From the IMG/VR virus record IMGVR_UViG_3300026382_000003, positions 1 to 42,899 of that record: a stretch of DNA of 42,899 nucleotides. One strand, 5' to 3'. Under the pieces are notes generated by a model that saw nothing but the letters and a program-made list of their open reading frames with translations, had not been told where the DNA came from and did no database searches. This DNA is from a virus. A program made the position numbers and the translations under genes. Below, piece by piece: positions 485 through 36,925 of this stretch (its first letter is position 1; every line of letters begins with the position of its first letter).

Positions 485-1274
485 TTTTAATCCTTTCATA
501 GTTGATTTTTATTTTTTCATTAGTTAGGACCAATTCTTTATAATCATTTGGTAATACATCAATTATATTTGCACATAATTTTTGAAATTCTGGTAACACA
601 TCTTTATTGGTTCTTAATTCCAATAAATGGACTAATGACCTTAAATTAAATGAATATTGTCCTTTAAACTTAAATGCTTCTGGTAAAGCATATTTAACAA
701 TGTCATTATGTATATTATCTTGTAATAATAATCTTACATTTTCTAAAGCATCAATAATGCAGTTATTCGCTTCTTGATTGTTTGTTAATACAACATATTT
801 TCTTGCTTTTTCATAATCATATACATATACATTCTTAACTGATGTCTCTATAAAAAAACTTTTTTCTTTTTTTAAATCTTTTAACAATGTATATCTTGTT
901 GATTTTACTGTAGGACTTATTCCTATTCTATGTCTGCTTAACTCTTGCAACAAAGCTCTACTTGCTTCTATTTCAAGAACAATTAAACTATGTTCTAAAA
1001 CGCTTTCATGTTTCATTTTAAAACCAACTCTTTTGATTAAATCAAAATCTTTGTATCCAATGTGGTCGTCTTCAAACATTCTGTAACCACAATTTTTACA
1101 TTCCAAATTTCCAAAAAGATTATTCCATTGGTTTACTCCCTCACAATTTAAACAACTTACTTTTTCTTTTCCTGATATACGATGACTATCGCTTAAATAA
1201 TGATTATCGTGTGAATATCTAATTCCATTTGCTATTAGCCATAATGGGGTTACATAAATTAATTTTACTGACAT
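477..1274 (-). CDS. thyX: Flavin-dependent thymidylate synthase ThyX with a zinc-ribbon-like insert
   Basis: ThyX makes dTMP from dUMP with FAD and methylenetetrahydrofolate, supplying thymidine for an AT-rich phage genome. The family signature is clear: HESVLEH near residue 89, then SRALLQELSRHR with the RHR at 114-116, followed by a Ser and STRY. At 265 aa the length is normal to slightly long. Near the N-terminus, residues 41-62 hold CLNC and CKNC, a four-cysteine zinc-ribbon-like insertion that is not part of the standard ThyX core. The RBS AAGGAG lies a few bases before the ATG. It sits in the leftward metabolic and replication operon, 20 bases from the next gene upstream. Confidence 0.92.
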   Translation of the reverse strand: MSVKLIYVTPLWLIANGIRYSHDNHYLSDSHRISGKEKVSCLNCEGVNQWNNLFGNLECKNCGYRMFEDDHIGYKDFDLIKRVGFKMKHESVLEHSLIVLEIEASRALLQELSRHRIGISPTVKSTRYTLLKDLKKEKSFFIETSVKNVYVYDYEKARKYVVLTNNQEANNCIIDALENVRLLLQDNIHNDIVKYALPEAFKFKGQYSFNLRSLVHLLELRTNKDVLPEFQKLCANIIDVLPNDYKELVLTNEKIKINYERIKNG

Positions 1275-1294
1275 TTATTTCTCCTTTTTTTTAT

Positions 1295-1618
1295 TTAGAA
1301 GTTATTGTTTTTAATTTCGTTAAAACTTTTTCCTGTTATTTCTTTTATTACAGCATTTAATATTTCTGAATACAGCTTCTCAACTTCTTTATCTATTTCA
1401 ATTTCAACTGAATAATTAGAATTCTTATCTTTAATTTTGTAAATAGTTCGTTCTGTATTTTTCGCATTCTTGAAAATTGAAATATAGCCGCCTTTGTAGT
1501 TGCCATGGAAATATATATTGAATTTTGTTTTTGCATATTTATCCCAAATGTTATTTAATTTATTTTCAATTTTTTTACTTAAAGAATATCTTTGACCAAT
1601 CAATTTTACTACATTCAT
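1295..1618 (-). CDS. Hypothetical protein, 107 aa
   Basis: Basic protein of unknown family. The first half is Lys/Arg rich with aromatic beta-type stretches (YFHGNYKGGYISIF); the C-terminal third is helical and acidic. No membrane segment or cysteine pair. AAAGGA precedes the ATG at a normal distance. It lies between thyX and the Cas4/RecB-like nuclease in the same leftward operon. Confidence 0.75.
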   Translation of the reverse strand: MNVVKLIGQRYSLSKKIENKLNNIWDKYAKTKFNIYFHGNYKGGYISIFKNAKNTERTIYKIKDKNSNYSVEIEIDKEVEKLYSEILNAVIKEITGKSFNEIKNNNF

Positions 1619-1630
1619 TTTTATGGTCCT

Positions 1631-2380
1631 TTAAAATTTAATCTTACTTCTTTGTTGGTTTTGTTTATAATAAGGACAAACTTTTTTATAAGGACAATAA
1701 ACTTCGCATCTCATTTTAATGATGTTACCGTTGTTTAATTTTCTAATCCACAAATCCTTGCATTGCTCAGGATAAGAACCAACTTGCTCATGTGCTTCTA
1801 TTTGTTCTACTATTTCATTAAATCTTTTTTCAATTTCTTTGTATGGTATTGGTTCTAAATCAATTATTTCATAATGTGGAAGAGAGCATCCATCTTTAAT
1901 GTTAAAATCAGAACCATCTTTTAGAATTGCAAACAACTTAATATTGTAATCTAAACCAGTAAGTTCTTTCATTAAGTATCTATAAACGCTCAATTGCCAA
2001 ATATAATGATGCGTTGGTTCTTTTTTTAATTGAGATATAGTGTATTGCTTAGTCACTTTAATATCATAAAGTGCTTTTTCTTCATTATCAACAATATCAA
2101 TAGAGCCACTCAATGTCCAACCGTTTGGAAATTTTACTAAGACATCTTTTTCTATTTCTATTTCTGGTTCGTTTTTTATTAATTCCTGAATTCCTATGTG
2201 AACTAAAGAACCAATCGTTGACTGAGTAAAATTTTCATTAGGAATAACTCCATGTTTGTATCTTAACCATATTTGCAATAATTCATCTCCAAATTGAGAA
2301 GCACTTATTTGTTTTATATTTGGTTCACTGTTCCCTTGATATTGAGTTTTTTCAATAATTTTTTTAATTATCTTGTTCAT
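1631..2380 (-). CDS. Cas4/RecB-like PD-(D/E)XK nuclease with an Fe-S cysteine cluster
   Basis: A 249-aa single-domain nuclease of the RecB/Cas4 superfamily. Visible motifs are H61 in GSLVH, D95 in SGSIDIV, D106 and K108 in YDIKVT, and Q129 in QLSVYRY, the usual metal-binding and catalytic set. C207, C225, C229 and C235 form a C-terminal cluster that in relatives binds a 4Fe-4S centre. Such phage nucleases process DNA ends for recombination or replication. Next to it are the helicase-like/primase fusion and, further upstream, SSB-like and Sak4-like genes, so it probably belongs to a phage recombination module. There is no cas1 or CRISPR array nearby, so a CRISPR role is unlikely. Confidence 0.85.
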   Translation of the reverse strand: MNKIIKKIIEKTQYQGNSEPNIKQISASQFGDELLQIWLRYKHGVIPNENFTQSTIGSLVHIGIQELIKNEPEIEIEKDVLVKFPNGWTLSGSIDIVDNEEKALYDIKVTKQYTISQLKKEPTHHYIWQLSVYRYLMKELTGLDYNIKLFAILKDGSDFNIKDGCSLPHYEIIDLEPIPYKEIEKRFNEIVEQIEAHEQVGSYPEQCKDLWIRKLNNGNIIKMRCEVYCPYKKVCPYYKQNQQRSKIKF

Positions 2381-2384
2381 TTGC

Positions 2385-2981
2385 TTATTCTCCTTCTAAA
2401 TCAAATCTGCCTGAATTAAGAACGTCACATATTTTTTTAGCATCTTCTTTTGTTTTAAAATAAATGTCAGTTGGACTATAAATATGTTTTGTAGGTTTTA
2501 TAGAATATATTTTATTTAGATTTCTAAAAATTACGAATTGTTCGAGACCATACACAAATTCATACCCTCTACTATCAAGACACTCTTGGTCTCTTAGAGC
2601 TAACAATCTTGTATATCTTTTTATTTGTTTTAATGCTTTTTTTGCCGTTTCTTTATCATTCCTAAACAATCCTATTTTATCTTCACAACCAATAGGCATG
2701 TTTTTAGAAACTTTACAATTTGAAAGGTCTATTAAGTATTTACACTCTTTTAATTCAGCCTTAGGTCTTGTTGGTATTTCAAATTTAATTTCATCCCAAA
2801 AAAGAGTTTGATTGCAAAACTGTTCTTTTTTTCCGTCAAGAGTAAAAGTTTCATATTGGTTATTATTAAAAAGGACCCCAATTGGATATGGCAAATTATA
2901 CACTAATTCTTTAACTATACCCCATCCATGTTCAAAACTCCAAACTTTATCGCCTACTTTAATTCCATCAAAATAAGCCAT
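2385..2981 (-). CDS. Conserved phage protein with KOW/SH3-like N-terminus, 198 aa
   Basis: The N-terminal 65 residues (GDKVWSFEHGWGIVKEL, then PIGVLFNN and YETFTLDGK) match the small beta-barrel pattern seen in many phage proteins of unknown role, in which a GDKVW...GWG core is followed by a TxDG turn and a conserved LFW segment. The C-terminal part is a separate alpha/beta region with a Lys-rich helix around residues 108-130. I do not know its function. It lies 11 bases downstream of the helicase-primase gene with its own AAGGAG site. Confidence 0.75.
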   Translation of the reverse strand: MAYFDGIKVGDKVWSFEHGWGIVKELVYNLPYPIGVLFNNNQYETFTLDGKKEQFCNQTLFWDEIKFEIPTRPKAELKECKYLIDLSNCKVSKNMPIGCEDKIGLFRNDKETAKKALKQIKRYTRLLALRDQECLDSRGYEFVYGLEQFVIFRNLNKIYSIKPTKHIYSPTDIYFKTKEDAKKICDVLNSGRFDLEGE

Positions 2982-2992
2982 TTTGTTCTCCT

Positions 2993-5089
2993 TTAACTAT
3001 ATTTTCTTTTTAAACTTGACAACACAGTTTTTCTTAACTCTTTTTCACTAATTGGCTCTGAAAGCATAGAATTAGCTTTATACAATTCTTCTTTTATTCT
3101 CTCATAAGAACCAGTTAAATCTCCTATAAAAGCTCCAAGTCTATATAAATTCTGATTTCTTACAGAAGGATAAGTATTGCTAATAAACCATTTAATCATA
3201 CCTCCTATTCTACGATTAATTTCGTCAGTGTTATATTCGTTTTCATCAAATCTTTCTATTTGTTTTTCAATAATTTCTCTTACTTCCGTATCAGGCAAAT
3301 ACGGAGTAACATCGAACAACTCTCCTTGTTGGTTCTTAAATATTTGTGCGTTAGGATTTGTAAACCATAATCTGTCCTGATTTCTTGTAGAGATGTCATA
3401 AGAACCAACCTCTAATGCTTCGCATATGTTTGATATCAATTCTTTGTGTCTTTCATTATCAACGAAAAATTTTGATTTTGTAGGCAATAAAATTCTAAAT
3501 CTGTCACACACTAATCCTCCTTTTTCTTTTTGATGAGATTTTGTCGTATAAATTAAATAAATGTAATCTTTTAACTTTTCAATGGTTTCTTTTAATGTAA
3601 TTCCATTATCAACATCTATACCTATACAATTTTGACCTTCAATTGTTTTATCAGCTTTTCTCTTGCCATTTTCAAAATGAACAAGACAAAAATTTGATAC
3701 TTTATCTGATTTAACTAATTTTTCCATTGATTGATTTTCTCCAAAAAATGGAATTTCCATGCTAATATATTCCGTTGTTTTTTCTTTCCTATCAACTTTA
3801 GGAATTGAAACGATAATTTTGTTCAAATCAGTAAGAGGCATTGGTTCTATTGAAAAAGTTTTTATTTTAGAACCATGAATTTTAAGAATTTCATTTTTTC
3901 TGTATGCATATTCTTCTACTAACTTAATATCTTCATTAAATGTCATTCTATTAAAAACATCGGATTCTAATATCTCTGATTTTGTTGCTTTGCCAAGTTT
4001 TTTGATTATTTTGTATATTCTTTTGTGTTGTGGTTCTACATTAAATAATTCTAAATTTGTCTTTCTTACACGCTTATAAAATTCATAAGCATACTCTACA
4101 TCTTCATAAGAAATTTGTTCTTTTTGGTTTAACAAGGCATGTAATGCACTTAGTTTAAGCAATTTATCAAAAGAACCAATCTCTGCTCCAAATCTTTCAT
4201 CCTCTTTATATTTGTTCGCAAATTCTACAAGTTCATAATTAATAAGCTCAAGATACTCTTCTGCATCTACCGTAAAGTGTAATTCAGGATAATTACCAGT
4301 CTTTATTATGTTTTTAACATGTTTATTGATGTAATCTCTCACAAAAGATAAATTTGGTTTTTCATAGAACTCAGAGTCCATTTTTATTTGTATATCAGTT
4401 GGTTCTTGATAATAAATAAATGACCTTCTATAAATACCAGAACCAAGTGCCTTTACAAAATATTCATACACTTTTTGGTCTCTTTTTAACGAAGTAGAGC
4501 TACCAAAAATAAGCATATTAGCTACTATTCCATATATATTGTCGTTAATAGAAGATTTTATTATTTTTCCTATAAATCTCCCATCATAAAGTTCTTTCAT
4601 TACATTTAGATTGCTGTCTCTAATAACATCCATTATTTCTTCGTGGATTAAATTCAAAGAGCCAAAATAGCTTTTTGATAGAGCTAAAGCTCTTAAATAT
4701 AGTCCTTCTTTTGTTCCTTCTATCGTGTTTTCAAAATTTGGAATATAGTTTTTAATATTTGTTTGAAAACCATCTATTGTAATTTCATCTTCTGAAGGAT
4801 TGTGTGTATTTAGTTCATATCCTTTTTCTATCAATTTCTTATATCTAAAGTTTAAATCTTCTCCAAATAGTTTCTTGCATTGTTCATAAACAAAACTTTT
4901 TCCCGCACTACTTGGAGCTATTGTAATTCCAAAATAATTTATGTTGTAAAGTTTGTATTTATATTCAACTTTTGGTTGAACAGAACCAAGTAAAGATGAA
5001 AAAGTAAACCAAAAAGCGTTTTCTATAAGTTCTCTTTGAGAAACAAACCTTCCTTGCGAATTTATGTAGTTGATAATCTGACTAATCAT
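2993..5089 (-). CDS. Helicase-like ATPase fused to an archaeo-eukaryotic-type primase (AEP), 698 aa
   Basis: Two enzyme parts are visible. Residues about 45-330 form a P-loop ATPase of the DUF3987-like helicase type, with Walker A APSSAGKS at 58-65 and a Walker B-like NLIHEE near 146-151. Residues about 430-600 look like an AEP primase: DVD at 492-494, SH at 518-519 followed by DRFRILLP, and a later Asp/Arg motif DISTRNQDR near 565-573. A helical tail similar to PriCT domains closes the protein. The order is helicase first, primase last. It probably starts and unwinds phage replication forks. No phage DNA polymerase gene is seen, so this protein may hand primers to the host polymerase. Ten or more EPT, GS or NQ residue runs derive from the AGAACCAA word. 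Confidence 0.85.
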   Translation of the reverse strand: MISQIINYINSQGRFVSQRELIENAFWFTFSSLLGSVQPKVEYKYKLYNINYFGITIAPSSAGKSFVYEQCKKLFGEDLNFRYKKLIEKGYELNTHNPSEDEITIDGFQTNIKNYIPNFENTIEGTKEGLYLRALALSKSYFGSLNLIHEEIMDVIRDSNLNVMKELYDGRFIGKIIKSSINDNIYGIVANMLIFGSSTSLKRDQKVYEYFVKALGSGIYRRSFIYYQEPTDIQIKMDSEFYEKPNLSFVRDYINKHVKNIIKTGNYPELHFTVDAEEYLELINYELVEFANKYKEDERFGAEIGSFDKLLKLSALHALLNQKEQISYEDVEYAYEFYKRVRKTNLELFNVEPQHKRIYKIIKKLGKATKSEILESDVFNRMTFNEDIKLVEEYAYRKNEILKIHGSKIKTFSIEPMPLTDLNKIIVSIPKVDRKEKTTEYISMEIPFFGENQSMEKLVKSDKVSNFCLVHFENGKRKADKTIEGQNCIGIDVDNGITLKETIEKLKDYIYLIYTTKSHQKEKGGLVCDRFRILLPTKSKFFVDNERHKELISNICEALEVGSYDISTRNQDRLWFTNPNAQIFKNQQGELFDVTPYLPDTEVREIIEKQIERFDENEYNTDEINRRIGGMIKWFISNTYPSVRNQNLYRLGAFIGDLTGSYERIKEELYKANSMLSEPISEKELRKTVLSSLKRKYS

Positions 5090-5092
5090 TGA

Positions 5093-5536
5093 TTATCCTT
5101 TTAATAATTTAGGATTGTCGTAAGCGTTTCCAATTATTTCAACAAATTCTTCTATGTCTTTGCCTAACCTAAATGGATTACAATTAGGCATGTTTATTGG
5201 ATATGCTTTAAAGCCACATATATACTCATCATCAAATTCAACAAGACAAATATCTTGTTTTTGAGGCATTCTTTCATATAAAATAATATCTCCTTCATAA
5301 ATTTCTTTACCATTTTTATCTTTTATTCCCGTATATTGACCAATACTAGTTGGCTCAATTTTAAATATATTTTCGTATTCTTTAAAACCAAAAACATTAG
5401 TATATATCCCAAAACATTCATAAATACCTATTTGTTCTTGTTTTGCAATATAAAATTTACTACCGCTTTGAATTAAATTTCCATAAATCCATTTATTTAT
5501 TTCTTTTGAATATCCTCTAAATTTAATTTTTCTCAT
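5093..5536 (-). CDS. YopX family protein, 147 aa
   Basis: The sequence MRKIKFRGYSKEINKWIYG, the SIGQYTGIKDKNGKEIYEGD block at residues about 72-92 and the following VEFDDEYICGF strand are the hallmark of YopX proteins, which are widespread in phages and prophages with no settled biochemical role. I start it at 5536, where AAGGAA precedes ATG; an upstream in-frame ATG would add 14 Lys-rich residues unlike the family. It follows a hairpin at 5566-5588 and lies 3 bases before the helicase-primase start. Confidence 0.88.
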   Translation of the reverse strand: MRKIKFRGYSKEINKWIYGNLIQSGSKFYIAKQEQIGIYECFGIYTNVFGFKEYENIFKIEPTSIGQYTGIKDKNGKEIYEGDIILYERMPQKQDICLVEFDDEYICGFKAYPINMPNCNPFRLGKDIEEFVEIIGNAYDNPKLLKG

Positions 5537-5565
5537 TTTTTTCCTTTTTTCTTCTAACTTAATCA

Positions 5566-5588
5566 TCAGAACCAACAAATGGTTCTGA
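5566..5588. repeat. Inverted pair of the dispersed word forming a hairpin
   Basis: TCAGAACCA at 5566-5574 and its exact complement TGGTTCTGA at 5580-5588 form a perfect 9-bp stem with a 5-base loop. It lies in the gap between the SSB-like gene and the YopX gene. There is no U-run on the minus strand, so it may act as an mRNA-processing or pausing structure and not as a full terminator. Confidence 0.75.
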
Positions 5589-5655
5589 TTGTTAAATTAG
5601 AATCATTTTTAAAGATCTCCATCGCCAATAAACATTACATTCTCCTTTTATGAAA

Positions 5656-6279
5656 TTAGAATTGAATATCGTCAGTATTTGTATGACTATTACTTGATTG
5701 GTTATTTGTTTTTTCTTCAACAATAGGTTTTTTTTCAATTCTCTTAGCAAGTTTTTCTCTACATTCTTTATTATTAATACAACAAACATCAACAAGTTGT
5801 AAAGCTACACCATTAGAACCATCTTGTTTTTTATATTTTCTATGCCTTATACCAATGGTAACTTTTTTTCCAATAAGTTCTTTGAAAATTCCAACTTCTT
5901 TTTGTTGTCCAAAAATTTCTACATATCCTTTTTGTGGAATTAAATCAGTTACTCTTTTACCTATGCATTTAGCAATCTTATCAAGTAAGATGAGACCTGT
6001 GTAATATCCTCCTTTTGAATTTTTCGTTTGTCCGTCTTTATTTTTAATCATTCTTTGAACATCCCAACCTACAAGATTTATTTCTACATCATTAGGAAAA
6101 GTTCCACTTGAACCAACAAGTCCAAAGAATGTAGTTCCTCCTTGTGTTTTATCAACAAATATTTGCTCAATTGTAATATCATACACTCCTGGTTCTGGTA
6201 ATTGAGACTCTCCAAAATTTGATTGTTCTTTTTCCTGTTCTTCCAATTCCGTAATGTTTACTTGTTCTAACCAACCCAT
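5656..6279 (-). CDS. Probable phage single-stranded DNA-binding protein, 207 aa
   Basis: The last residues are acidic and end in DDIQF, very like the SSB C-terminal tip (DDIPF type) that recruits partner enzymes. Before it is a disordered Asn/Ser-rich linker (residues about 180-200). The body (about 25-175) is beta-rich with Gly and aromatic residues, as expected for an OB-fold. The neighbourhood supports the role: helicase-primase and nuclease downstream, Sak4-like recombinase upstream. Sequence similarity to a named SSB family is not obvious, so the call rests on the tail, architecture and context. RBS AAGGAG precedes ATG. The start overlaps the stop of the 62-aa gene upstream. Confidence 0.72.
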   Translation of the reverse strand: MGWLEQVNITELEEQEKEQSNFGESQLPEPGVYDITIEQIFVDKTQGGTTFFGLVGSSGTFPNDVEINLVGWDVQRMIKNKDGQTKNSKGGYYTGLILLDKIAKCIGKRVTDLIPQKGYVEIFGQQKEVGIFKELIGKKVTIGIRHRKYKKQDGSNGVALQLVDVCCINNKECREKLAKRIEKKPIVEEKTNNQSSNSHTNTDDIQF

Positions 6280-6467
6280 TATTTAACTCCTTTAGCTATT
6301 TTTATTGATTCTTTTCTAAAAGTTTTAAACATTTTTTCAAGCTCTAATGTTCTTTTCCTACATCTTCTCATTGCACTTCTGTTACTTGTTTTTGGTAATT
6401 CTTTTTTTAATTCTTCAAGTTTTTCAATAATCTCTGTCACAAGAATTTCTAAGTTTTCATTGTTCAT
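6279..6467 (-). CDS. Small basic coiled-coil protein, 62 aa
   Basis: Two-part helical protein: an acidic N-terminal heptad-like helix (LEILVTEIIEKLEELKKEL) followed by a Lys/Arg-rich helix. No known family. Its stop overlaps the start of the SSB-like gene by one base and its start overlaps the 60-aa gene upstream. GGAGGA precedes the ATG. Confidence 0.7.
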   Translation of the reverse strand: MNNENLEILVTEIIEKLEELKKELPKTSNRSAMRRCRKRTLELEKMFKTFRKESIKIAKGVK

Positions 6468-6639
6468 TTTTTCCTCCTTTCTTTTTATCTAATTTTATAT
6501 CTAACAACTTAGCTAACCTTACATCGTCTTTAACCATAATATAATCATTATCATACGAAATAGCTAAACATTCTCTTATCTTTGCTTTAATTTCTTCTTC
6601 TTTAATTTTTAAAACTAATTCAAGCATTTCTTTATCCAT
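6457..6639 (-). CDS. Small acidic/basic helical protein, 60 aa
   Basis: Unknown family. A helix rich in Glu and Lys (residues 2-25) is followed by a short middle segment with YDNDYIMVKDDVRLAKLL and a Lys-rich tail. The start has AAAGGAG upstream. It overlaps both neighbouring small genes, which points to translational coupling. Confidence 0.68.
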   Translation of the reverse strand: MDKEMLELVLKIKEEEIKAKIRECLAISYDNDYIMVKDDVRLAKLLDIKLDKKKGGKNEQ

Positions 6640-6811
6640 TTAAACTCCTTTCAATTTTTTGTTTAATTGTAAGTTTTATTTTTCTACAATCCTTACATTT
6701 GACCTCCTTAAAAACATTTAAAATTCTTTTCTTTTCTTCTTTAGCTTCAATTAAAGAACCAAATACTCCTATTGAGAGTTGGTTCATGTAAAGAACAAAG
6801 TAACTTTTCAT
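6632..6811 (-). CDS. Small protein with a CxxC pair, 59 aa
   Basis: Starts at 6811 because AGGAGGTAAC sits just before this ATG. The N-terminus is aromatic and beta-like, then a Lys/Glu helix, then KCKDCRK, a single CxxC that could bind metal in a dimer. No recognised family. It overlaps the next small gene by 8 bases. Confidence 0.68.
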   Translation of the reverse strand: MKSYFVLYMNQLSIGVFGSLIEAKEEKKRILNVFKEVKCKDCRKIKLTIKQKIERSLNG

Positions 6812-6832
6812 GTTACCTCCTAAAACCAAACT

Positions 6833-7087
6833 TTATTCTTTATTTAATTTTCTTTGATATTCTTCAAGTTCCATCCATGCTTTTATTGCTTCTTCGTCAT
6901 CATCAAAAACTCTAACTACCCATTTGTTTTTCAACCAACCAAACACATAATAGAACCAAGCGTTTTCTTCTTTTAATGGATGAAAACAACTTGTTCTTGT
7001 TTTAGTTGGTTCTTTATCTAATCGTTTAAATTGTTTTTTTAGATACTGTTTATGCTCATAAGGAATTCTGTTTACATCTAATTCAAT
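6833..7087 (-). CDS. 84-aa protein with an ATT start codon
   Basis: The open frame from 7087 to 6833 encodes a well-formed protein (begins IELDVNRIPYEHKQYL when read literally, and later has NAWFYYVFGWLKNKWVVRVF and an acidic helical tail), but contains no early ATG, GTG or TTG. AAGGAGG stands 6 bases before an ATT, the correct distance, and an in-frame TAA lies just upstream, so ATT (read as Met) is the natural start. ATT starts are known in bacteria (infC, pcnB) where they allow IF3-dependent control. The gene fills what would otherwise be a 270-base gap in the operon. It carries one EPT and one WF from the dispersed word. Function unknown. Confidence 0.72.
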   Translation of the reverse strand: MELDVNRIPYEHKQYLKKQFKRLDKEPTKTRTSCFHPLKEENAWFYYVFGWLKNKWVVRVFDDDEEAIKAWMELEEYQRKLNKE

Positions 7088-24279: not shown

Positions 24280-25389
24280 ATGGTAGACACAAACACTTTA
24301 GCTACTCCTGCTCCAAATACGGAGCTGGACGCTAACGAAACTATTAGTTCTAGTGAAAATCATTTAGAAGAACCAACAGAACAAAATATTGAAAACGAAA
24401 ATCCTCAAACAGAGGATAGTAATACTGAAACAGAACAAACTAATAACTTTCATCAAACAGAAGAAAGAGATGAATATGATGATGTTTGGGATAAAGATTT
24501 AAACGAAATAGACTTAGCTAATTTTTCTGAAGAACCAACAAAACAAATAGAAATTGAAACACAATCTTCTTTTGAAGAAGACGATAATAAAGAAGATGAA
24601 CTATCTACAGTTGGTTCTAAAGAACCAGAAGAAAAAGACAATAAAGAACAACAAGGAATCATTATAACGAAGCCTCTAAAGTATAGAGGTAAAGAAATAT
24701 GGGTAAGAAGTGAAGATGAAGCTATTGAACTTATGCAAAAAGGCTTAGATTATTCATTTAAAATGAATAAAATTAAGCCTCTAAGAACTATAGCTTCAAT
24801 CATTGAAGAATCTGGTATTACGCCTGAAGATGTTAAAGCATTAGCTGACGCTAAAAATGGTAAAACAGAAGCTATCAAATATCTTGCTAAAAAGTTTGGT
24901 ATTGAACTAAATACTGATGACGATTTATTTTTTGACGATGAACAAATAGATAATGATTATAGACCCGTAGTTCAAGAAGAAGACCCAATTAAAGAGTTCT
25001 ATTCGGATTTAGCTCATAGAGACCCTGAATTAGCTGGAAAAGTATCAAAAATATGGAACATGATAGATGATACATTTAAGGTTGAACTATACAAACCTGA
25101 TGTTTTCCCTGCATTCGTTGGTTCTGTCCAAACAGGAGAATTTGAACAGGTTTTGCCAGAAGCTATTAAAATTAAAGCTCTAAATCCAGCATTAAGTTGG
25201 CTACAAGCGTATCAATATGCGGCACAAAATATTGGTTCAATTGAGAACCAACCAAAAGAACCAAGCTCTGTGGTTAAGCCTAAAAGACCACAGAAACAAA
25301 GAAAAAGAACAAAAACAATTGAAGAAACTTACGATGAGATTTGGAATAACAAATCTCTTGAAGAATTAGAAAAAGAAATATTCGGATAA
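24280..25389 (+). CDS. Scaffolding-like protein, 369 aa
   Basis: Highly acidic and low-complexity for the first 125 residues, then a globular helical region (KYRGKEIWVRSEDEAIELMQKGLDYSFKMNK) and a basic tail (VVKPKRPQKQRKRTK). The position directly before the major capsid gene and this charge pattern are typical of scaffolds that organise capsid assembly. Four EPT tripeptides from the dispersed word sit in its disordered regions. Confidence 0.82.
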   Translation: MVDTNTLATPAPNTELDANETISSSENHLEEPTEQNIENENPQTEDSNTETEQTNNFHQTEERDEYDDVWDKDLNEIDLANFSEEPTKQIEIETQSSFEEDDNKEDELSTVGSKEPEEKDNKEQQGIIITKPLKYRGKEIWVRSEDEAIELMQKGLDYSFKMNKIKPLRTIASIIEESGITPEDVKALADAKNGKTEAIKYLAKKFGIELNTDDDLFFDDEQIDNDYRPVVQEEDPIKEFYSDLAHRDPELAGKVSKIWNMIDDTFKVELYKPDVFPAFVGSVQTGEFEQVLPEAIKIKALNPALSWLQAYQYAAQNIGSIENQPKEPSSVVKPKRPQKQRKRTKTIEETYDEIWNNKSLEELEKEIFG

Positions 25390-25401: not shown

Positions 25402-26487
25402 ATGGCAACACTTACTTATGGTAAACAAGGTTCAGGATTAGGTGCGGCTCAACAAGCATATGTTGACAAATTAATGACTACTGAGGTAGCTCAAAAAACA
25501 ATCTTTGATAAATTCGCAACAATCCAAAAAGCTCTACCACAGAACAATGGAACCAAAATCACATTTAGAAAATGGGTTCCAATGAAAGACTTAATGATTG
25601 CCAACTCAATTTATGAAAATTACACTGGAAATGATGTAGCTAATGGTGAAGGAATAGCTACATTAGTAAACAAAGATGCTTATAAAGATTTTATCTTACC
25701 AGAAGGTAGCTCAGGAACAGAAAAAGGCGATATGAAAGTTGTAGAACAATCTACTGACATATTCCCTATTGGTGCATTCATGACTGTAACCGAAGAAATA
25801 AAAACATTCCACGACATGTATACAATTGCGGAAAATGTTAGACAATATAGCGATGTAGCGTCTCTCATTATAGACGGATTTTACAGAGATATTATGATTA
25901 ACTCTGCTGGACATCTTGAAGATATTACAGGAAATTCAGAACCAGAAGACAACGCAACAAGTGGTTCTATGTCTAAAGCAATCAGAAAAATATCTTTGCA
26001 ATTAAGATTATCTGGTGCTAAATATGTAAACTCTATCTTGTCTTCAAGTCCTGATTATGGAACAGTTCCTGTATGGGCAAGATACATTGGTATAGTTAAC
26101 ACACTTGCAGGAGATGCTTTAAGAGATAATCCTGATTTTATTCCACTTGAAAAATATGCAACTGGAACAGTGAAACCATTAGATGGCGAAATTGGTATGA
26201 TTAAAGATGTAAGAATCATTGAAAACGAAAATATGCTCATAGAACAAGAAACTGACGCAAGTGGTAGCACTAAGAACATTGGATATCTTTTAATCCTTGG
26301 TAAAGAACATACGGCTAATATACCTTTAAGAGGCAAAAAAAGAATTGAAGTAATCGTTAAAGGATTAGGACAAAATGGTGATGACCCATTGAATAGGGTA
26401 GCTACTATTGGTTGGAAATCTTGGTTAGGAGCTTTAACGATTTACCCAGAAAGACTTGGTTTAGTTAAATTCCATTTTGACATTTAA
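25402..26487 (+). CDS. Major capsid protein, N4-gp56 family, 361 aa
   Basis: The MATLTYGKQGSGLGAAQQAY N-terminus, the TKITFRKWVPM strand and the C-terminal GWKSWLGALTIYPERLGLV motif are the hallmarks of the N4-gp56-type major capsid protein. AAGGAGG before ATG is the best RBS of the block, as expected for the most abundant protein. It is the largest gene of this region without one exact copy of the dispersed word. It ends in the hairpin at 26486. Confidence 0.92.
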   Translation: MATLTYGKQGSGLGAAQQAYVDKLMTTEVAQKTIFDKFATIQKALPQNNGTKITFRKWVPMKDLMIANSIYENYTGNDVANGEGIATLVNKDAYKDFILPEGSSGTEKGDMKVVEQSTDIFPIGAFMTVTEEIKTFHDMYTIAENVRQYSDVASLIIDGFYRDIMINSAGHLEDITGNSEPEDNATSGSMSKAIRKISLQLRLSGAKYVNSILSSSPDYGTVPVWARYIGIVNTLAGDALRDNPDFIPLEKYATGTVKPLDGEIGMIKDVRIIENENMLIEQETDASGSTKNIGYLLILGKEHTANIPLRGKKRIEVIVKGLGQNGDDPLNRVATIGWKSWLGALTIYPERLGLVKFHFDI

Positions 26488-26528
26488 CTAAACAGTGAGA
26501 ACCGTTTGTTGGTTCTCACGATTTAGTT
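26486..26528 (+). repeat. Two-tier RNA hairpin at the capsid gene stop (first of a pair)
   Basis: AACTAAA pairs with TTTAGTT, then an internal CA/GA loop, then GTGAGAACC pairs with GGTTCTCAC, with a 7-base loop. It starts at the capsid stop codon and its upper stem contains the inverted dispersed word. There is no U-run behind it, so it looks like a 3' stability or attenuation element for capsid mRNA. Confidence 0.8.
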
Positions 26529-26554
26529 AAATACAATAAAAAAAAGGAGAAAAC

Positions 26555-26872
26555 ATGGCAAAAGCTAAAAGCGATAAAGTAAGAATCATAGTGAAACCAG
26601 CTACAGATAACGCCGATAGAGAAGGTTTCGTTAAAGTTAATGGAAAAATTATTCCATTTGATGTCCCTGTGGTTGTAGAACCAAGAGATGTAGCCGCTAT
26701 TGAAAGAATAAAAGAGCCAAGAAGAGTAAATAGCAAAACAGACCCAAGAGCTATAATGGAGCAATTAAGAATAACCCAAGAAAAAGCTAACAGGATTGCA
26801 AGATTGCAAGAAAAAGAGAACTTAAATACATCTGTTAGATTTGTAAACAAATACTTCGTTAAAATTGTCTAA
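26555..26872 (+). CDS. Capsid-associated small protein, 105 aa
   Basis: N-terminal beta part (VRIIVKPATDNADREGFVKVNGKIIPFDVPVVV), a joint EPRDVAAIERIKEPRR and a C-terminal basic helix. Small proteins of this type follow the capsid gene in related podoviruses; role unknown, possibly a decoration or head-completion factor. It is bracketed by two matching hairpins. Confidence 0.65.
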   Translation: MAKAKSDKVRIIVKPATDNADREGFVKVNGKIIPFDVPVVVEPRDVAAIERIKEPRRVNSKTDPRAIMEQLRITQEKANRIARLQEKENLNTSVRFVNKYFVKIV

Positions 26873-26911
26873 ACAATAGAACCACTACTCCTGTTGGTTC
26901 TATGATTTAGA
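26868..26911 (+). repeat. Two-tier RNA hairpin (second of a pair)
   Basis: TCTAAA/TTTAGA outer stem, CA/GA internal loop, ATAGAACCA/TGGTTCTAT upper stem, 10-base loop. It has the same CTAAA-CA ... GA-TTTAG outer architecture as the hairpin after the capsid gene and again begins at a stop codon. The repetition implies a selected RNA structure. Confidence 0.78.
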
Positions 26912-26942
26912 TAATTTATCTTCCATATAAAAGGAAACGAAA

Positions 26943-27350
26943 ATGAGCAATACACTACTTGATATAAGCCTTGATAATAATCCTTTTTTAAATAGTAATT
27001 TCAAACCAAGACAACAACAAGAATCAGTTTTACCAACTTCACAAGCTCCTTCAATTTTTAATGAAAATTTTTATCTTAAACAAAAAAGTCCTGTGTATTC
27101 ACTATTAAGTAAAATACATGAAAACCAAGTGATACAAGAAAACAGTTTTACAAATAAATATCTAAAGCCATTAAACATGGGAATAACAACATTTGGAACG
27201 CTTGGTTCTTTATGGTTAGGGTTTAAGCAATATAGCTTAATGAAAGACCAATTAGCAATGGCTAAAGAACAATGGAACAGAACCAAACAAGAGCTTGACA
27301 GAATACAAGCTGTCAGAAAAAAACTAACTGATTCCTACATGAATTCTTAA
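26943..27350 (+). CDS. Small internal/ejection protein with a membrane segment, 135 aa
   Basis: Disordered N-terminal half with Asn, Gln and Pro, one hydrophobic segment near 80-95 (MGITTFGTLGSLWLGF), then a coiled-coil helix (DQLAMAKEQWNRTKQELDRI). This layout fits the small ejection proteins of podoviruses that help build the channel through the host envelope. Confidence 0.65.
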   Translation: MSNTLLDISLDNNPFLNSNFKPRQQQESVLPTSQAPSIFNENFYLKQKSPVYSLLSKIHENQVIQENSFTNKYLKPLNMGITTFGTLGSLWLGFKQYSLMKDQLAMAKEQWNRTKQELDRIQAVRKKLTDSYMNS

Positions 27351-29122: not shown

Positions 29123-32100
29123 ATGGCTAACAAAAACGCCCTTCAAAACGCCTTCTTTAATGCCATATCTGAACTTGCAAAAGAAAAAGAACAACAAGTT
29201 AATGAAACATACTTTGAGAACGCAAAACCAGAACTATCAACTATTCAAAAAACATTTGTTCCCATTGCACAATTTGCGTCAGGAATTAATACACTTGGCT
29301 CATCTTTAACAAAAACAATAACGCCAGAACAAGTAGAAGCCAATCAAATTATACAATCACAAGAAACATCAGGAATTCCTGAATTCTTAGGAAATTTTGC
29401 TCTTGGTGGAGCAACTTTTAAAGCATCATCGCTTGGCATTAGTTATTTACTAAAAAACAAAATATCATCTACTCTTTTAAAAGGGTTATCTACTGTAGCC
29501 GTAGATTCTACATTAAATGCCGTTCCTATTTCTTTAACGCCTACAAACGATGGAAAAGATGTAAAAATTGACAAAGATGCTTTCTTAGCAAATGAGTTAA
29601 CAATGACTGGTTTAGCATTGCCTTTTGTAGCTAAAGATGTCGTTAAAGTAAAACCAAACATTCCTAAACAAACCATTTCAACCCTTGGTTCTAAACTAAA
29701 TTCACTTAACAAAGAAGATATTTCAAATAAAGCTAAGACTATTTTTGAAGATTTAAAAGAAAAAGTAAAACAAAGAAGAGAATCCGTTTTTCAAGAACCA
29801 ACGAAAGACATGATAGATTTTAATGCTAACGAAAAAGCTATTTATAATAAGTTCAATTTACCTAATGAAGTTGGTTCTAAAGAAGAATTATTTAAAGATT
29901 TAAAAGAAAATCCTAAAAAGTTTCTAGAGAAGGCAAAATATATTTTGATGCATAACAATGAAACATATTTTGACGATATAAAAATAGATAAGAACCAACC
30001 TACAAGTGGAGAAATTATAAAAGATGGCAACAAAATAATTCTTTCAATAAATCCTAACAAAATCAAAAATCCTGATGATTTAATTGACATATTAGACCAT
30101 GAGGGGACTCATAATAAAACATTTGAAAATTCAAACATAGAACCAACAGCCGCACTTTTACACGAGTTTATTGCTTATTCATCAAACATTATAAAAGATG
30201 TAGAAGATGGAAACATAGATAAAGCAAAAGAAAAATTAAAACTTTTTAAACAATATTCTGATAATGCCGAACAATATGGATACACGAAGCAAGATGGAAA
30301 AGGACTATACGATTTATTAAAAACTTATATTAAAGAGCCAACAGAAAAAAACAAAAACAAAATATTAGGATTAATAACCGATATAAACAGAAATTCTAAA
30401 CCTCAAAAAGACATGATTGATTTCGTTAATGAAAATCCAAAATATATTAAAACAGAACTTACTGAATATGACAAAAAAATAAGAGCAAAAGAGTTTAAAC
30501 AAGCATTAAAATCAGGAGATACTAAGTATATAAAAGAAACATTAGAGGATATTCTTGATACAAATGTCCCTAATTTTGAACTTGGTTCTAAAACGGAATA
30601 TAAAAATGGAAAATTAACGATAGCTAAAAATTCAAATTTAAAAACTATAGTTAAAAAAATGGATGACATTATTTCAACCATTAAAACAAACGAACAATAT
30701 GAAGGGAAAAATGTTCTTTCTTTTGTAAACAGAATTCTTAACAAAAAAGAACCAACTAAAAGTGACAAGAAAACTATAGAGAAATTAAAAAACGATATTA
30801 TCGATATGCAAAATGGTAAATTACAAATAAATGAAGAAAAAGCTAAGAACAATAAATTCTATAACAAATACAAAAAACTATCTAATGAGGATATCATTGA
30901 TGCTTATGAAACAATAAAAGCCTTTACTGAAGGAAAACCTGATATAAATAAAGATAAATTAGTAAAAGCTCTTCATTTTTATGAACTTCATAAAAAAATG
31001 AGAGCATTTGAAAAAGACAGTAAAACAACTTTAGAAGGCAAAACTTCATTAGAACCAGCCGATAGGTTTGAGAACGATATATTAGAACAAGTGCTAAACA
31101 AAGATTTTCCTTATATGGATGAAAAAGATAAAACCACATTAGTATCTCTTGGGAGAGAAGAAGGGAATGTAGTAAATCCTAAAATAAATAAGAACAAAAT
31201 TTATAATGATTTTGTTAAAAAGTTAAATGCTTTTATTTTTAACGATAAAGATGAGCTTGGCTTTACTTTAAAAGACAAAATAAGACATAGAATAACTGAG
31301 TTCTATAAAGAAGAATTAAAAAGAAAAAACAAAAAACTAACAAATAATCAAATTGAAGATATTCTTAAAAAAGAAAAAGAAAAAATAGATGAAATAGTAA
31401 AATTAGGAATACAAAAGCATCTAAACAAAATAAAAGATGAGTTTAAAGAAAAACCTACTGAATTTGCTTATTTTAAAGTAGAACCGACGGGCGAAGTAGT
31501 AATAGACAGATTAAATGTTTCAAGATTAGAGAAAGATATTGACACATTAAAGCCACAACAAGCATTAAAAGATGAGATATTGTTATCTAAACTTGGAAGA
31601 AAAGAGTCTAAGATTGCCAATACGCTTGAAAATAGAGTCTTTTACAACAGAAGAAAATATAAAGAAAGAGTAGAAAAGTTTATAAAAAACAGACTTACAT
31701 CTCTTTATAAAGAAATGGTTAAATTATTTAAAGATGAAAAACTGAAAAAACAAAAAGAAGAGCTTAAAAAAAGGACTAGTATTGGTTCTTTAGAGACTCT
31801 TAAAGAGTCATATAAAAAATTAGCAAACGATTTAAGAAAAGGTAATATTTCTCTATTAGAGATAATGGAACCAACCGAGAAAACTATCAACTTAGACAAA
31901 CTTTATAGTATTTTTGCAAAATACAATAATCACAAAGTGAAAAAAGAACCTATTGTCGACAAAAAAGTGATAACGATTTCAAGAGGGTTAAATAAAAAAA
32001 CTTCAGAAAAAGCAAAATCTATAAGAGAGAAATTACAAAAAGAAAAAGAAGAATTAATTAAAAAGCAAAAACAAAAAGAAAGAGAAAGAAAAAAAGAAGA

Positions 32101-34996
32101 ATTTAATGAATTAGTCAATAAGTTAAAAGAAACAGATTATGAATACATAAACAAGAGATATGACTTAAAAACAGTTTATACGGAAAATGTTAGAAAAAAA
32201 TTAAAAGAGGCATATTATAAAATACCTTCTGCAATTTCCTTCTTTAAAGAACCTCGATGGAAAAAGATTAAATACAATGAATCAATAGCATATGAAAACT
32301 TAAAAAACAACATCAATAAATATGGAACTACCGATATGAGAAAACTAACTGAAGTGGCTGGTGGTTCTGAAGACTTGCATTTATTGGCTTTAATACATGA
32401 AACAATACACAATATCAATTCAGACCTTCCTGAAGAAAAAGTAGTTAAATATGCAAACATTCTGATGAATAAAATGTTAAAAGATTTTCCTGAATTAAAA
32501 GAAAGATGGAATTTAAGAAAAGAATTTGAAGACTTCTTAAATCTCTTTGTCAAAAGAAAAAGACTAAAAAAAGAGGAAAAAGAAACTTTAAAAAATCTAT
32601 ATACAATGCTCTTAGGGTTCATTTATGTAAACAAAGACCTAAAAGACATACTCTTTGGTTCACAAACATTATGGAGTAGAGTAGAGGCAATAGAAAAAAG
32701 TTTTAAAGAAAAAGTGCTAAATACGCTATATAATGAAATAAAAGACACAGAACTATACAAAAAAGCAAAAGATTACCTTGAAAAGGATATGCCAACCGCA
32801 ATAAAAGAAATCCTGTTTGAAGCTAACATTTTAGAACCAAAAGAATCAGTAAAAAGACTACAAGAACTAAAAGAAAGATTCTTAAATGGAACAAACTTAT
32901 TCAAGTCCGCTGGTTCTAAATTAATTAAAGAATTAGAGAAAGATTATTCAAGAGATGAATTAAGAACAATAATTAAAAGTGGATTATTGCAACTTAAAAC
33001 AATTATCAAAGATTTAAAAGGCAAAGATATAACAACCGAAGAATTGATTAATCTTATTAAATCTGGTAAATACAATCTTTCAAAATTAAATGAAACGCAA
33101 AAACGACTAATTAAAGCATCAGTAGAATTTAGATATACAGATGGAGAAAAAGCAAGTGAAAAAATATTCTCTTATGAGACTTTCAAAAAGAACCAACGAA
33201 AAATAGGACTAAGTTTTGAAGATTTTACCTTGTTTAGAGCAAGATACATTATTGAAAAGAATGAACTATTAGACAAGATTAACAAAGACTCATTAAAAAG
33301 ATTTTTAAATTATCATGATGAATTTTTATCTGAAGTTTTAAACGCTAAAACATTAATCTTAGGATATGAACCATATATAATCAAAGGTTTAAATAGGTTA
33401 AAATTTGCATTTACTGAAAAAGAAAGAACAGAATTAAAAAGTAAAGGTTTTAAAGAAATTACAGAAGGACTCTTTGTAGTACCACATAATGAAGAAGAAT
33501 TTGTTTCTCAATTGACAATAAGTAAGTCTTTTAACAAAAGAACTGGTTTAAATAAAATATTTAATGTTAATTCTAAAGAATACGAAGAATTCTTACAAAG
33601 CGATTTATACAAAAAGAACAAAGACCACTTAGTTACTATACATAAAGATAAAAACACTGTAGAAATTATATATATCCCTAAAAAAGAACATTTTAAAGAA
33701 ATATATTTTGAATCAGAACCAACGGAGACATTGCATCAGATGCTTGGTTCTGTAATAGATAAAGCAATGTTTAAAAAACTCATTAAAAATAAGGCATATA
33801 AAGAATCTTTAAAAGATATAGTGTCATTAGAAAAGAAAAAAGGTTTTGTTAAAGCTACAAAAGAACAACAAGCATTATTGAAATCTATTTTTAAAGATGA
33901 AATAAATGATTTACGATTATCTAAAAAGAAAGACATTAAAGTAGAATTCTATGTTGATAAGACATATAAAAACATGCTCTTATATAAACATTTTGAATTT
34001 AAAGATGAAAAATTAAATACTATTTATCAAATTTACACATCACTAATAAAAAGATTAAAAGGTAATACAACATATAAAAGTGCAACGGCTTTTACTTCAG
34101 CTATATTTAGTGGAATAACAGGATTAGTTTCTCTTGGAGTTAACCCTAAATATGTTCCAAAATTAATAATGCAAACACTAAAGGAATGGAAAGAATGGAG
34201 AAAATTTGAAGACAAATTCAATGAAATCCTTTACAAACAAGGATACAACAAAGCAAGGGAATATTTAAGAACGATTAAAAAAAGTAATGTATTTGCTGAG
34301 ATTTTTTATGATGGTAAAATAGGAAATCTATCATCCGATATTGAAATTCTGTTTGGTTCGACTAAAGATGAGAGAGCTTTATATCAGGGCTTAAAGGCTA
34401 TAGACAAAAAATATGGAACCAATAATGCTGACAAAATACTAAAATTGATTAAAACTGGTCTTTTGGATAAAGAAACTATAATAGGGCAATATCTAATCAA
34501 TTACTATTCAAACATAGACTTATTTACAAGAGCATCGGCATACAAATACTTAAAAGTAAATTATGGAAAAGAAAAAGCTATAGAAATGATAAACAATCTA
34601 TTTGTTGACTTTAAAAAAGAACCAATAGGTTGGATAAAAGATATTGAAAATAGCGGTATTCCTTTCCTTGTGTTTATGCTTAGAATGCAAGGAGGAGTTT
34701 TAAAAACAATAAAAGAAAAGCCACTAACTATGGGTATGATAATTGGTTTATACTTTATGTTGGCTGATGATAAAAATGACGACTACTCTAAAAATGGAAT
34801 AAGGATAGACAGTTGGTTCTTACATAGAACATTAATGGACCCACTAACATTTAAGTTGTCAGTTTATAATCAAATAATGCATGGACATATTCTAAAAGAG
34901 GTAGAGCAAATGATTCTTCCAAAAGAATATATCCTGATTTATAAAGCTATACAGAACCAAGAACCAACTGAAGTTATAGGAGTTTATACTAAATAA
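29123..34996 (+). CDS. Giant polyvalent-type virion/ejection protein with two HExxH motifs, 1957 aa
   Basis: The largest protein of the phage, very rich in Lys and Glu. HEGTH at about 326-330 (ILDHEGTHNKTF) and HETIH at about 1092-1096 (LALIHETIHNI) are zinc-peptidase-like motifs. Long helical coiled regions lie between about 560 and 1060. The C-terminal 350 residues have hydrophobic parts (AIFSGITGLVSLG, FLVFMLRMQGG, MGMIIGLYFML). This architecture fits the large polyvalent or T7 gp16-like proteins ejected with phage DNA. Eight EPT tripeptides from the dispersed word lie in apparently flexible parts. Its stop overlaps the stop of the convergent sigma-like gene by 8 bases. Confidence 0.78.
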   Translation: MANKNALQNAFFNAISELAKEKEQQVNETYFENAKPELSTIQKTFVPIAQFASGINTLGSSLTKTITPEQVEANQIIQSQETSGIPEFLGNFALGGATFKASSLGISYLLKNKISSTLLKGLSTVAVDSTLNAVPISLTPTNDGKDVKIDKDAFLANELTMTGLALPFVAKDVVKVKPNIPKQTISTLGSKLNSLNKEDISNKAKTIFEDLKEKVKQRRESVFQEPTKDMIDFNANEKAIYNKFNLPNEVGSKEELFKDLKENPKKFLEKAKYILMHNNETYFDDIKIDKNQPTSGEIIKDGNKIILSINPNKIKNPDDLIDILDHEGTHNKTFENSNIEPTAALLHEFIAYSSNIIKDVEDGNIDKAKEKLKLFKQYSDNAEQYGYTKQDGKGLYDLLKTYIKEPTEKNKNKILGLITDINRNSKPQKDMIDFVNENPKYIKTELTEYDKKIRAKEFKQALKSGDTKYIKETLEDILDTNVPNFELGSKTEYKNGKLTIAKNSNLKTIVKKMDDIISTIKTNEQYEGKNVLSFVNRILNKKEPTKSDKKTIEKLKNDIIDMQNGKLQINEEKAKNNKFYNKYKKLSNEDIIDAYETIKAFTEGKPDINKDKLVKALHFYELHKKMRAFEKDSKTTLEGKTSLEPADRFENDILEQVLNKDFPYMDEKDKTTLVSLGREEGNVVNPKINKNKIYNDFVKKLNAFIFNDKDELGFTLKDKIRHRITEFYKEELKRKNKKLTNNQIEDILKKEKEKIDEIVKLGIQKHLNKIKDEFKEKPTEFAYFKVEPTGEVVIDRLNVSRLEKDIDTLKPQQALKDEILLSKLGRKESKIANTLENRVFYNRRKYKERVEKFIKNRLTSLYKEMVKLFKDEKLKKQKEELKKRTSIGSLETLKESYKKLANDLRKGNISLLEIMEPTEKTINLDKLYSIFAKYNNHKVKKEPIVDKKVITISRGLNKKTSEKAKSIREKLQKEKEELIKKQKQKERERKKEEFNELVNKLKETDYEYINKRYDLKTVYTENVRKKLKEAYYKIPSAISFFKEPRWKKIKYNESIAYENLKNNINKYGTTDMRKLTEVAGGSEDLHLLALIHETIHNINSDLPEEKVVKYANILMNKMLKDFPELKERWNLRKEFEDFLNLFVKRKRLKKEEKETLKNLYTMLLGFIYVNKDLKDILFGSQTLWSRVEAIEKSFKEKVLNTLYNEIKDTELYKKAKDYLEKDMPTAIKEILFEANILEPKESVKRLQELKERFLNGTNLFKSAGSKLIKELEKDYSRDELRTIIKSGLLQLKTIIKDLKGKDITTEELINLIKSGKYNLSKLNETQKRLIKASVEFRYTDGEKASEKIFSYETFKKNQRKIGLSFEDFTLFRARYIIEKNELLDKINKDSLKRFLNYHDEFLSEVLNAKTLILGYEPYIIKGLNRLKFAFTEKERTELKSKGFKEITEGLFVVPHNEEEFVSQLTISKSFNKRTGLNKIFNVNSKEYEEFLQSDLYKKNKDHLVTIHKDKNTVEIIYIPKKEHFKEIYFESEPTETLHQMLGSVIDKAMFKKLIKNKAYKESLKDIVSLEKKKGFVKATKEQQALLKSIFKDEINDLRLSKKKDIKVEFYVDKTYKNMLLYKHFEFKDEKLNTIYQIYTSLIKRLKGNTTYKSATAFTSAIFSGITGLVSLGVNPKYVPKLIMQTLKEWKEWRKFEDKFNEILYKQGYNKAREYLRTIKKSNVFAEIFYDGKIGNLSSDIEILFGSTKDERALYQGLKAIDKKYGTNNADKILKLIKTGLLDKETIIGQYLINYYSNIDLFTRASAYKYLKVNYGKEKAIEMINNLFVDFKKEPIGWIKDIENSGIPFLVFMLRMQGGVLKTIKEKPLTMGMIIGLYFMLADDKNDDYSKNGIRIDSWFLHRTLMDPLTFKLSVYNQIMHGHILKEVEQMILPKEYILIYKAIQNQEPTEVIGVYTK

Positions 34997-36462: not shown

Positions 36463-36760
36463 CTTGATTAACATCAAAAGATAACTTAAAAAGTTAACAT
36501 TTCGAACTAATAAAGTTGTATTTGAATGTTAACTTTTAAAATCAGTATAATGCCCGATTTTATGGTATTGGAAGTAACTTTTTCAAAATGTTATTATTGT
36601 AAATAATTTATAAAAAAAATATTTTACATTATTGGTTTTGAAATGTTTTTTTTGTTTTTTATCAAGTTCATCCTGATATCTTGTTGCACATTAGGATTCA
36701 ATTTTTAAATCACTTCTAAAATTTAATGTTATAAAGTCAAAACTAATTAGGTAATGATAA

Positions 36761-36815
36761 TGACATTTTTGTCACCCTATAGTTTTCTATAGAGTGACAT
36801 TTTTGTCACCCTAAT
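36761..36815. repeat. Direct repeats TGACATTTTTGTCACCCTA with internal palindromes
   Basis: Two identical 19-base copies, 34 bases apart (36761-36779 and 36795-36813). Each holds the palindrome TGACA-TTTT-TGTCA, and the spacer contains CTATAG TTTT CTATAG. Operators or iterons, similar in half-site to the early promoter at 10.1 kb. Confidence 0.78.
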
Positions 36816-36898: not shown

Positions 36899-36925
36899 AG
36901 AACCAATGAACGCATTGTTGGTTCT
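36899..36925. terminator. Hairpin from inverted dispersed words after the SF2 helicase gene
   Basis: AGAACCAA (36899) and TTGGTTCT (36918-36925) face each other one base from the helicase stop, with inner ATG/CAT complementarity. A second small stem TGCC-TTC-GGCA lies directly beyond on the minus-strand side (36889-36899), then a T-rich stretch. Likely a leftward terminator. Confidence 0.6.

Follow-up and report, generated by a model that had tools for sequence, protein, structure and literature searches.

Two-tier RNA hairpins that carry a dispersed genomic word follow the capsid and SSB genes of an N4-like phage and may act in 3'-end processing

Introduction

The gene that follows the major capsid gene of an uncultured phage is flanked by two similar hairpins, which raises the question of whether they are RNA elements and what they do to the capsid message. 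The DNA analyzed, referred to here as the window, is an IMG/VR virus record of 42,899 bp with about 29% GC. The relatives of its portal, capsid and terminase genes are N4-like phages, and the source phage is an uncultured, N4-like, AT-rich virus. A sequence-only reading had described the two hairpins, regarded their structure as selected and proposed that they protect the capsid mRNA 3' end, bind a phage protein or mark mRNA segments. Judged from the sequence, their position and shape favor mRNA segmentation or 3'-end protection.

Genes of the source phage

The genes adjoining the hairpins are the following:

25402 to 26487, plus strand: major capsid gene (MCP; PHROG 1357 major head protein, E 7e-35)
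26555 to 26872, plus strand: gene for a 105-aa protein, between hairpins H1 and H2, without a family match
26943 to 27350, plus strand: gene whose start lies 25 nt past H2
5656 to 6279, minus strand: single-stranded DNA-binding protein (SSB) gene, upstream of hairpin H3 (PHROG 743 SSB, E 8e-10)

The SSB protein has the C-terminal tip DDIQF, and the best Foldseek match of its low-confidence predicted structure is the ssDNA-binding protein PrgE (E 2.8e-4). The gene at 24280-25389 carries the PHROG 2120 label, tape measure; its position directly before the capsid gene suggests that it encodes a scaffold protein. The 1957-aa protein encoded at 29123-34996 was considered as an N4 virion RNA polymerase, a reading that was rejected because searches against PHROGs, Pfam and PDB sequences gave nothing.

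Three hairpins of common design

Three hairpins were found, one of which (H3) the sequence-only reading had overlooked:

26482 to 26532, plus strand: H1, two-tier RNA hairpin 3' of the major capsid gene; outer stem 11 bp, CA/GA loop, inner stem 10 bp, terminal loop of 5 (UUUGU)
26862 to 26917, plus strand: H2, two-tier RNA hairpin 3' of the 105-aa gene; outer stem 12 bp, CA/GA loop, inner stem 9 bp, terminal loop of 10
5552 to 5602, minus strand: H3, a third copy, 3' of the SSB gene; found at the same place in relatives L016, L017, L023 and L024

All three share an outer stem of 11-12 bp, a 2x2 internal loop CA/GA and an inner stem of 9-10 bp containing AGAACC/GGTTCT, an inverted pair of a word dispersed through the genome, and none has a U-run. 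For H1 and H2, the sequence-only reading had correctly described the common outer stem CTAAA/TTTAG, the CA/GA internal loop, the inverted word in the upper stem, the absence of a U-run and the compensated differences GTGAG/CTCAC versus ATAG/CTAT. The stop codons TAA 26485-26487 (H1) and 26870-26872 (H2) sit within the 5' strand of the outer stems, and the true structures are larger than it had stated. H3 lies 53 nt beyond the SSB stop in the source genome.

The minimum free energies of H1 and H2 were -26.3 and -23.1 kcal/mol, and none of 200 shuffles folded equally well for either. The folding z scores of H1, H2 and H3 were -8.4, -8.0 and -8.5, respectively. When all 54-nt windows on both strands were scanned, H1 ranked 1st, H3 2nd and H2 about 4th. 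The distance from the hairpin end to the next ATG is 22 nt for H1, 25 nt for H2 and 15 nt for H3 (start at 5536), and these gaps are occupied by the ribosome-binding site. The gene downstream of H3 is YopX-like and was annotated at 5093-5578; TTG 5578 falls within H3, and the start is probably ATG 5536 instead.

The sequence 3' of the upper stem is GAUUUAG, and H1's outer stem is followed by ACAAUAAAAAA. A stem with an immediate U-run, as in intrinsic terminators, was found at none of the three hairpins; a loose terminator scan flagged H1, merely because 5 of 8 positions are T. Rfam gave no match at gathering score within the window.

The pattern AGAACC N3-20 GGTTCT occurs 5 times in the window against 0.00 expected in shuffles, and four of the five pairs lie at gene 3' ends. 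The fourth of these differs from H1-H3 and was not matched by the covariance model described below:

36899 to 36925, minus strand: inverted word pair after the helicase gene; single-tier, outside the CA/GA class

Another strong fold was seen at 36756-36809, where two GTGACAAAAATGTCA copies surround a CTATAG stem. This double hairpin lies in a long intergenic region near two HTH-protein genes and is possibly an operator or origin. The same region contains an inverted repeat, AAAAAGTTAACATT...AATGTTAACTTTT, at 36486-36540.

Covariation and selection on the RNA

Copies of the hairpin were gathered from capsid relatives at 59-90% identity and by pattern scans. In relatives, they lie 3' of the MCP gene, of the next gene and of the SSB gene, and their orientation always matches the gene direction, minus strand included. 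The covariation alignment held 22 copies, from the window and relatives, and 20 pairs. Paired cells amounted to 99.3%, as against 30-52% when the partner was slid by 1-3 positions, and 11 of the 20 pairs had changed on both sides. None of 500 shuffles reached any of five covariation measures; the rows are related sequences, and the shuffle counts are therefore not probabilities. The CA/GA loop was kept in 21 of the 22 copies, and the word pairs in the stem were nearly invariant whereas the flanking pairs varied.

The coding strand of the 22 copies contains 27 G·U cells and 2 A·C cells and the other strand the reverse, so it is the mRNA that selection keeps. Together with the double-change pairs and the shuffles, this asymmetry bears out the earlier view that the structure is under selection. 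It is thus established that the hairpin structure exists, that it is selected as coding-strand RNA, that its places are conserved and that no promoter would fit between it and the next gene.

A covariance model built from two copies, a check proposed with the sequence-only reading, recovered copies in both the source phage and its relatives. H1 and H3 were used, since MAFFT placed H1 and H2 out of register, and the model found H2 and the relatives' copies. T7 gave no match to it, and neither did about twenty further N4-like phages. Pattern matches in two low-word phages, L028 and L029, are located inside genes and look like chance, even though that in L029 has an E value of 0.0065.

Two further observations were made among the relatives. 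The related phage G004 has an extra two-tier hairpin (L034:3681-3734) with a UU/AA loop and a partial word, away from the capsid and SSB places. In L010, the contig from 4737 to its end, after the hairpin, resembles reverse-complemented capsid sequence; this is probably a fold-back chimera that arose at the hairpin during assembly or amplification.

The dispersed word and the search for a host

The word in the stem, AGAACCA/TGGTTCT, occurs 141 times in the window where about 4 are expected, a density of about 3.3 per kb. The occurrences are divided 72/69 between the strands and, within genes, into 63 sense and 62 antisense. Because it is strand-equal both overall and in genes, AGAACCA is a DNA word, and the sense and antisense counts rule out an RNA-level function of the dispersed copies. 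Codon and dipeptide usage was considered as the origin of the word and is insufficient: GAACCA was found 46 times and GGTTCT 40 times, as against 22.7 and 8.3, respectively, expected from dipeptide and codon use.

The word is also conserved. In comparison with the relative G002 (80% nucleotide identity), 89 of 119 sites were intact (75%), versus 24% of control 7-mers; in other relatives the values were 58-88% versus 20-25%. Word density in relatives ranges from 1.9 to 6.5 per kb.

Like an uptake word, AGAACCA is short and over-represented on both strands. No enrichment of the word was found among 369 Gammaproteobacteria, the only group sampled in number, or in 12 other genomes. A scan of GTDB contigs with the pattern AGAACCAACN{3,16}GTTGGTTCT gave scattered, chance-like taxa among the matches listed and no word-bearing host among them. 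One bacterial-bin contig had a higher word count, L171 of a Bipolaricaulota bin; it seems to come from a phage, with homology to L066, and was rejected as a host.

Dialects in divergent phages

More divergent phages, with capsids about 20-25% identical, were reached by pattern scan. In L069, hairpins built from AGAACCA follow both the capsid gene and the small gene after it, and in L044 and L061 the capsid gene is likewise followed by an AGAACCA-word hairpin. In divergent word-bearing phages, a phrog_2130 protein occupies the place of the 105-aa gene. Furthermore, two phages use other words. In G025 (L273 / L275-L278), 61.6 kb contain 157 copies of GATCCAA, and the hairpin that follows its capsid gene is AGAUCCAACUUUGGAUCU. 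G027 (L195 / L281) contains GGAGCCA 38 times in 14.1 kb, and the hairpins after its capsid gene and after the next gene both use GGAGCCA. The two words are dialects of GANCCA. In the post-capsid hairpin of the GGAGCCA phage (L195:7350-7420), an internal loop CUGA is opposite UGAUGA, as in the box C/D kink-turn.

Among the remaining N4-like phages of the panel, most lack a word of this kind and carry an ordinary hairpin or terminator after the capsid gene; some have a moderate AGAACCA excess. A broader and rather unlikely reading is that an N4-like lineage keeps its own dialect-bearing genome word and that inverted pairs of it serve as the RNA hairpins by which its capsid and SSB messages are ended or processed. 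On that reading, genome marking and late gene expression would be linked through one recognizer, which could be uptake-like, Chi-like or a DNA-binding protein of the phage. The dialect-matched hairpins also bring a wider question within reach of a test: what accounts for a conserved word of 7-9 bp that recurs every 300 bp on both strands in some phages, and whether it is driven by the host (uptake, Chi) or by the phage.

Processing, termination or binding

By analogy, the most likely function of H1-H3 is 3'-end processing. That they are RNA-level 3'-end or processing hairpins on polycistronic phage mRNAs, with a mechanism of the T7 RNase III type, is given about an even chance; that they cut or end the message at their sites in some way is probable. 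H1 and H2 would form in the transcript directly past the stop codon, and H3 shortly past it. Since the stop codons sit in the outer stem, the terminating ribosome should delay the folding of H1 and H2. Host RNase III would bind the double-stranded hairpin of about 23 layers and cut the strand where the central CA/GA loop interrupts the helix, the most likely point being just 5' of GAUU. The upstream message (capsid, 105-aa gene or SSB) would keep the upper hairpin as its 3' cap, and the cut would free the ribosome-binding site of the next gene. Cleavage, RNase III as the enzyme and stabilization of the message are what we infer. Capsid and SSB products are needed in large amounts; that the 105-aa protein is also required in bulk is a guess.

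The main rival to 3'-end processing is partial termination. The upper stem would form behind RNA polymerase over a weak GAUUUAGU hybrid and end a fraction of the transcripts after the capsid gene, like T7 Tphi, with the outer stem merely reinforcing it. In other N4-like phages of the panel, the MCP gene is often followed directly by a GC-rich hairpin and a U-run, and inverted DUS pairs are terminators in Neisseria (PMC2397512). In part of the divergent word-bearing group (L061, L271 and L273), the inverted-word hairpin at this very place is single-tier with a U-rich tail and looks like a terminator, which is a counterpoint to processing, and H1 itself was flagged by the terminator scan. However, H1-H3 lack a U-run, and they conserve two features that termination does not need, the CA/GA loop and the outer stem of 11-12 bp. 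A stable outer stem is dispensable for a terminator but required for an RNase III substrate of about two helical turns. Moreover, a complete terminator is unlikely because the 15-25 nt to the next start leave no room for a promoter and the next genes would otherwise be silent; termination would be partial at most. Partial termination is considered rather unlikely.

The possibility was also considered that a phage or host protein reads the stem word, the CA/GA loop or both and so regulates the messages for capsid and SSB; this protein might also be the one that recognizes the dispersed word in DNA. The stem word is constant save for one A-to-G change whereas the flanking pairs covary, the internal loop is nearly invariant, and word-dense phages of other dialects use their own dialect in the post-MCP hairpin, all of which such a site would explain. 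However, the strand neutrality of the dispersed word in genes means that its recognizer reads duplex DNA, from which A-form RNA would differ, and there is no known candidate protein; a binding site is improbable. That H1-H3 act in the DNA, as cruciforms or as sites of recombination or replication, and only resemble RNA hairpins is an already disfavored reading; it draws on the clear conservation of the stem word in DNA but is very improbable, given that the coding strand keeps G·U and avoids A·C, that the orientation always follows the genes and that the hairpins are always 3' of particular genes.

Comparison with known systems

The processing interpretation leans on the likeness to the RNase III sites of T7. 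When R0.3, R0.5, R1, R1.1 and R1.3 were folded, with cut positions that we take to be those of Dunn and Studier 1983, all five formed two-tier hairpins, and the cut fell in the 3' strand of the central loop. The cut is at UAU^GAU in three of the five and not in the other two; H2 and H3 read AU GAUU at the corresponding loop position, and H1-H3, like those three T7 sites, have GAU on the loop's 3' side. Like the T7 sites, H1-H3 are intergenic hairpins whose two tiers, roughly 10+10 bp, enclose a central internal loop, and they lack a U-run. The R1.1 RNA is described as a hairpin of 60 nt whose internal loop is 4/5 nt, and RNase III uses its site in vivo (PMC6121014). The loop of H1-H3 is symmetric, whereas the T7 loops are larger and asymmetric, and the stem of H1-H3, unlike that of the T7 sites, is a genome-wide word. 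The resemblance does not extend to sequence kinship, as two covariance models gave no match in T7 500-7000. If H1-H3 are processing sites, a phage group unrelated to T7 has reached the same cutting and protection of the capsid message.

The post-MCP intrinsic terminators of other N4-like phages occupy the same gene position as H1. For the most part they consist of a single GC-rich stem plus a U-run and, unlike H1, are neither two-tier nor built from the word. REP/BIME 3'-stabilizing elements are gene-end hairpins able to protect upstream mRNA and occur in many copies in bacterial chromosomes; their sequence is different, and the source phage has just three such hairpins.

A parallel in construction is found in Neisseria and the Pasteurellaceae, whose DUS and USS words are genome-dispersed and have dialects (PMC2397512; PMC3630211). 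Closely spaced inverted DUS are terminators in Neisseria (PMC2397512), and these inverted-DUS/USS terminators and H1-H3 are alike gene-end hairpins made from two inverted copies of a dispersed short word. In Pasteurellaceae prophages, USS accumulate up to about 750 per Mb (PMC6776037); the about 3,300 per Mb found here is only roughly comparable, being for the 7-mer AGAACCA and not for the longer USS. H1-H3 differ in that the word is carried by phages, with no word-bearing host among the genomes searched, and in their extra outer stem, internal loop and lack of a U-run. By this analogy, they appear to work like a word-pair 3'-end element, the word itself being a candidate uptake sequence.
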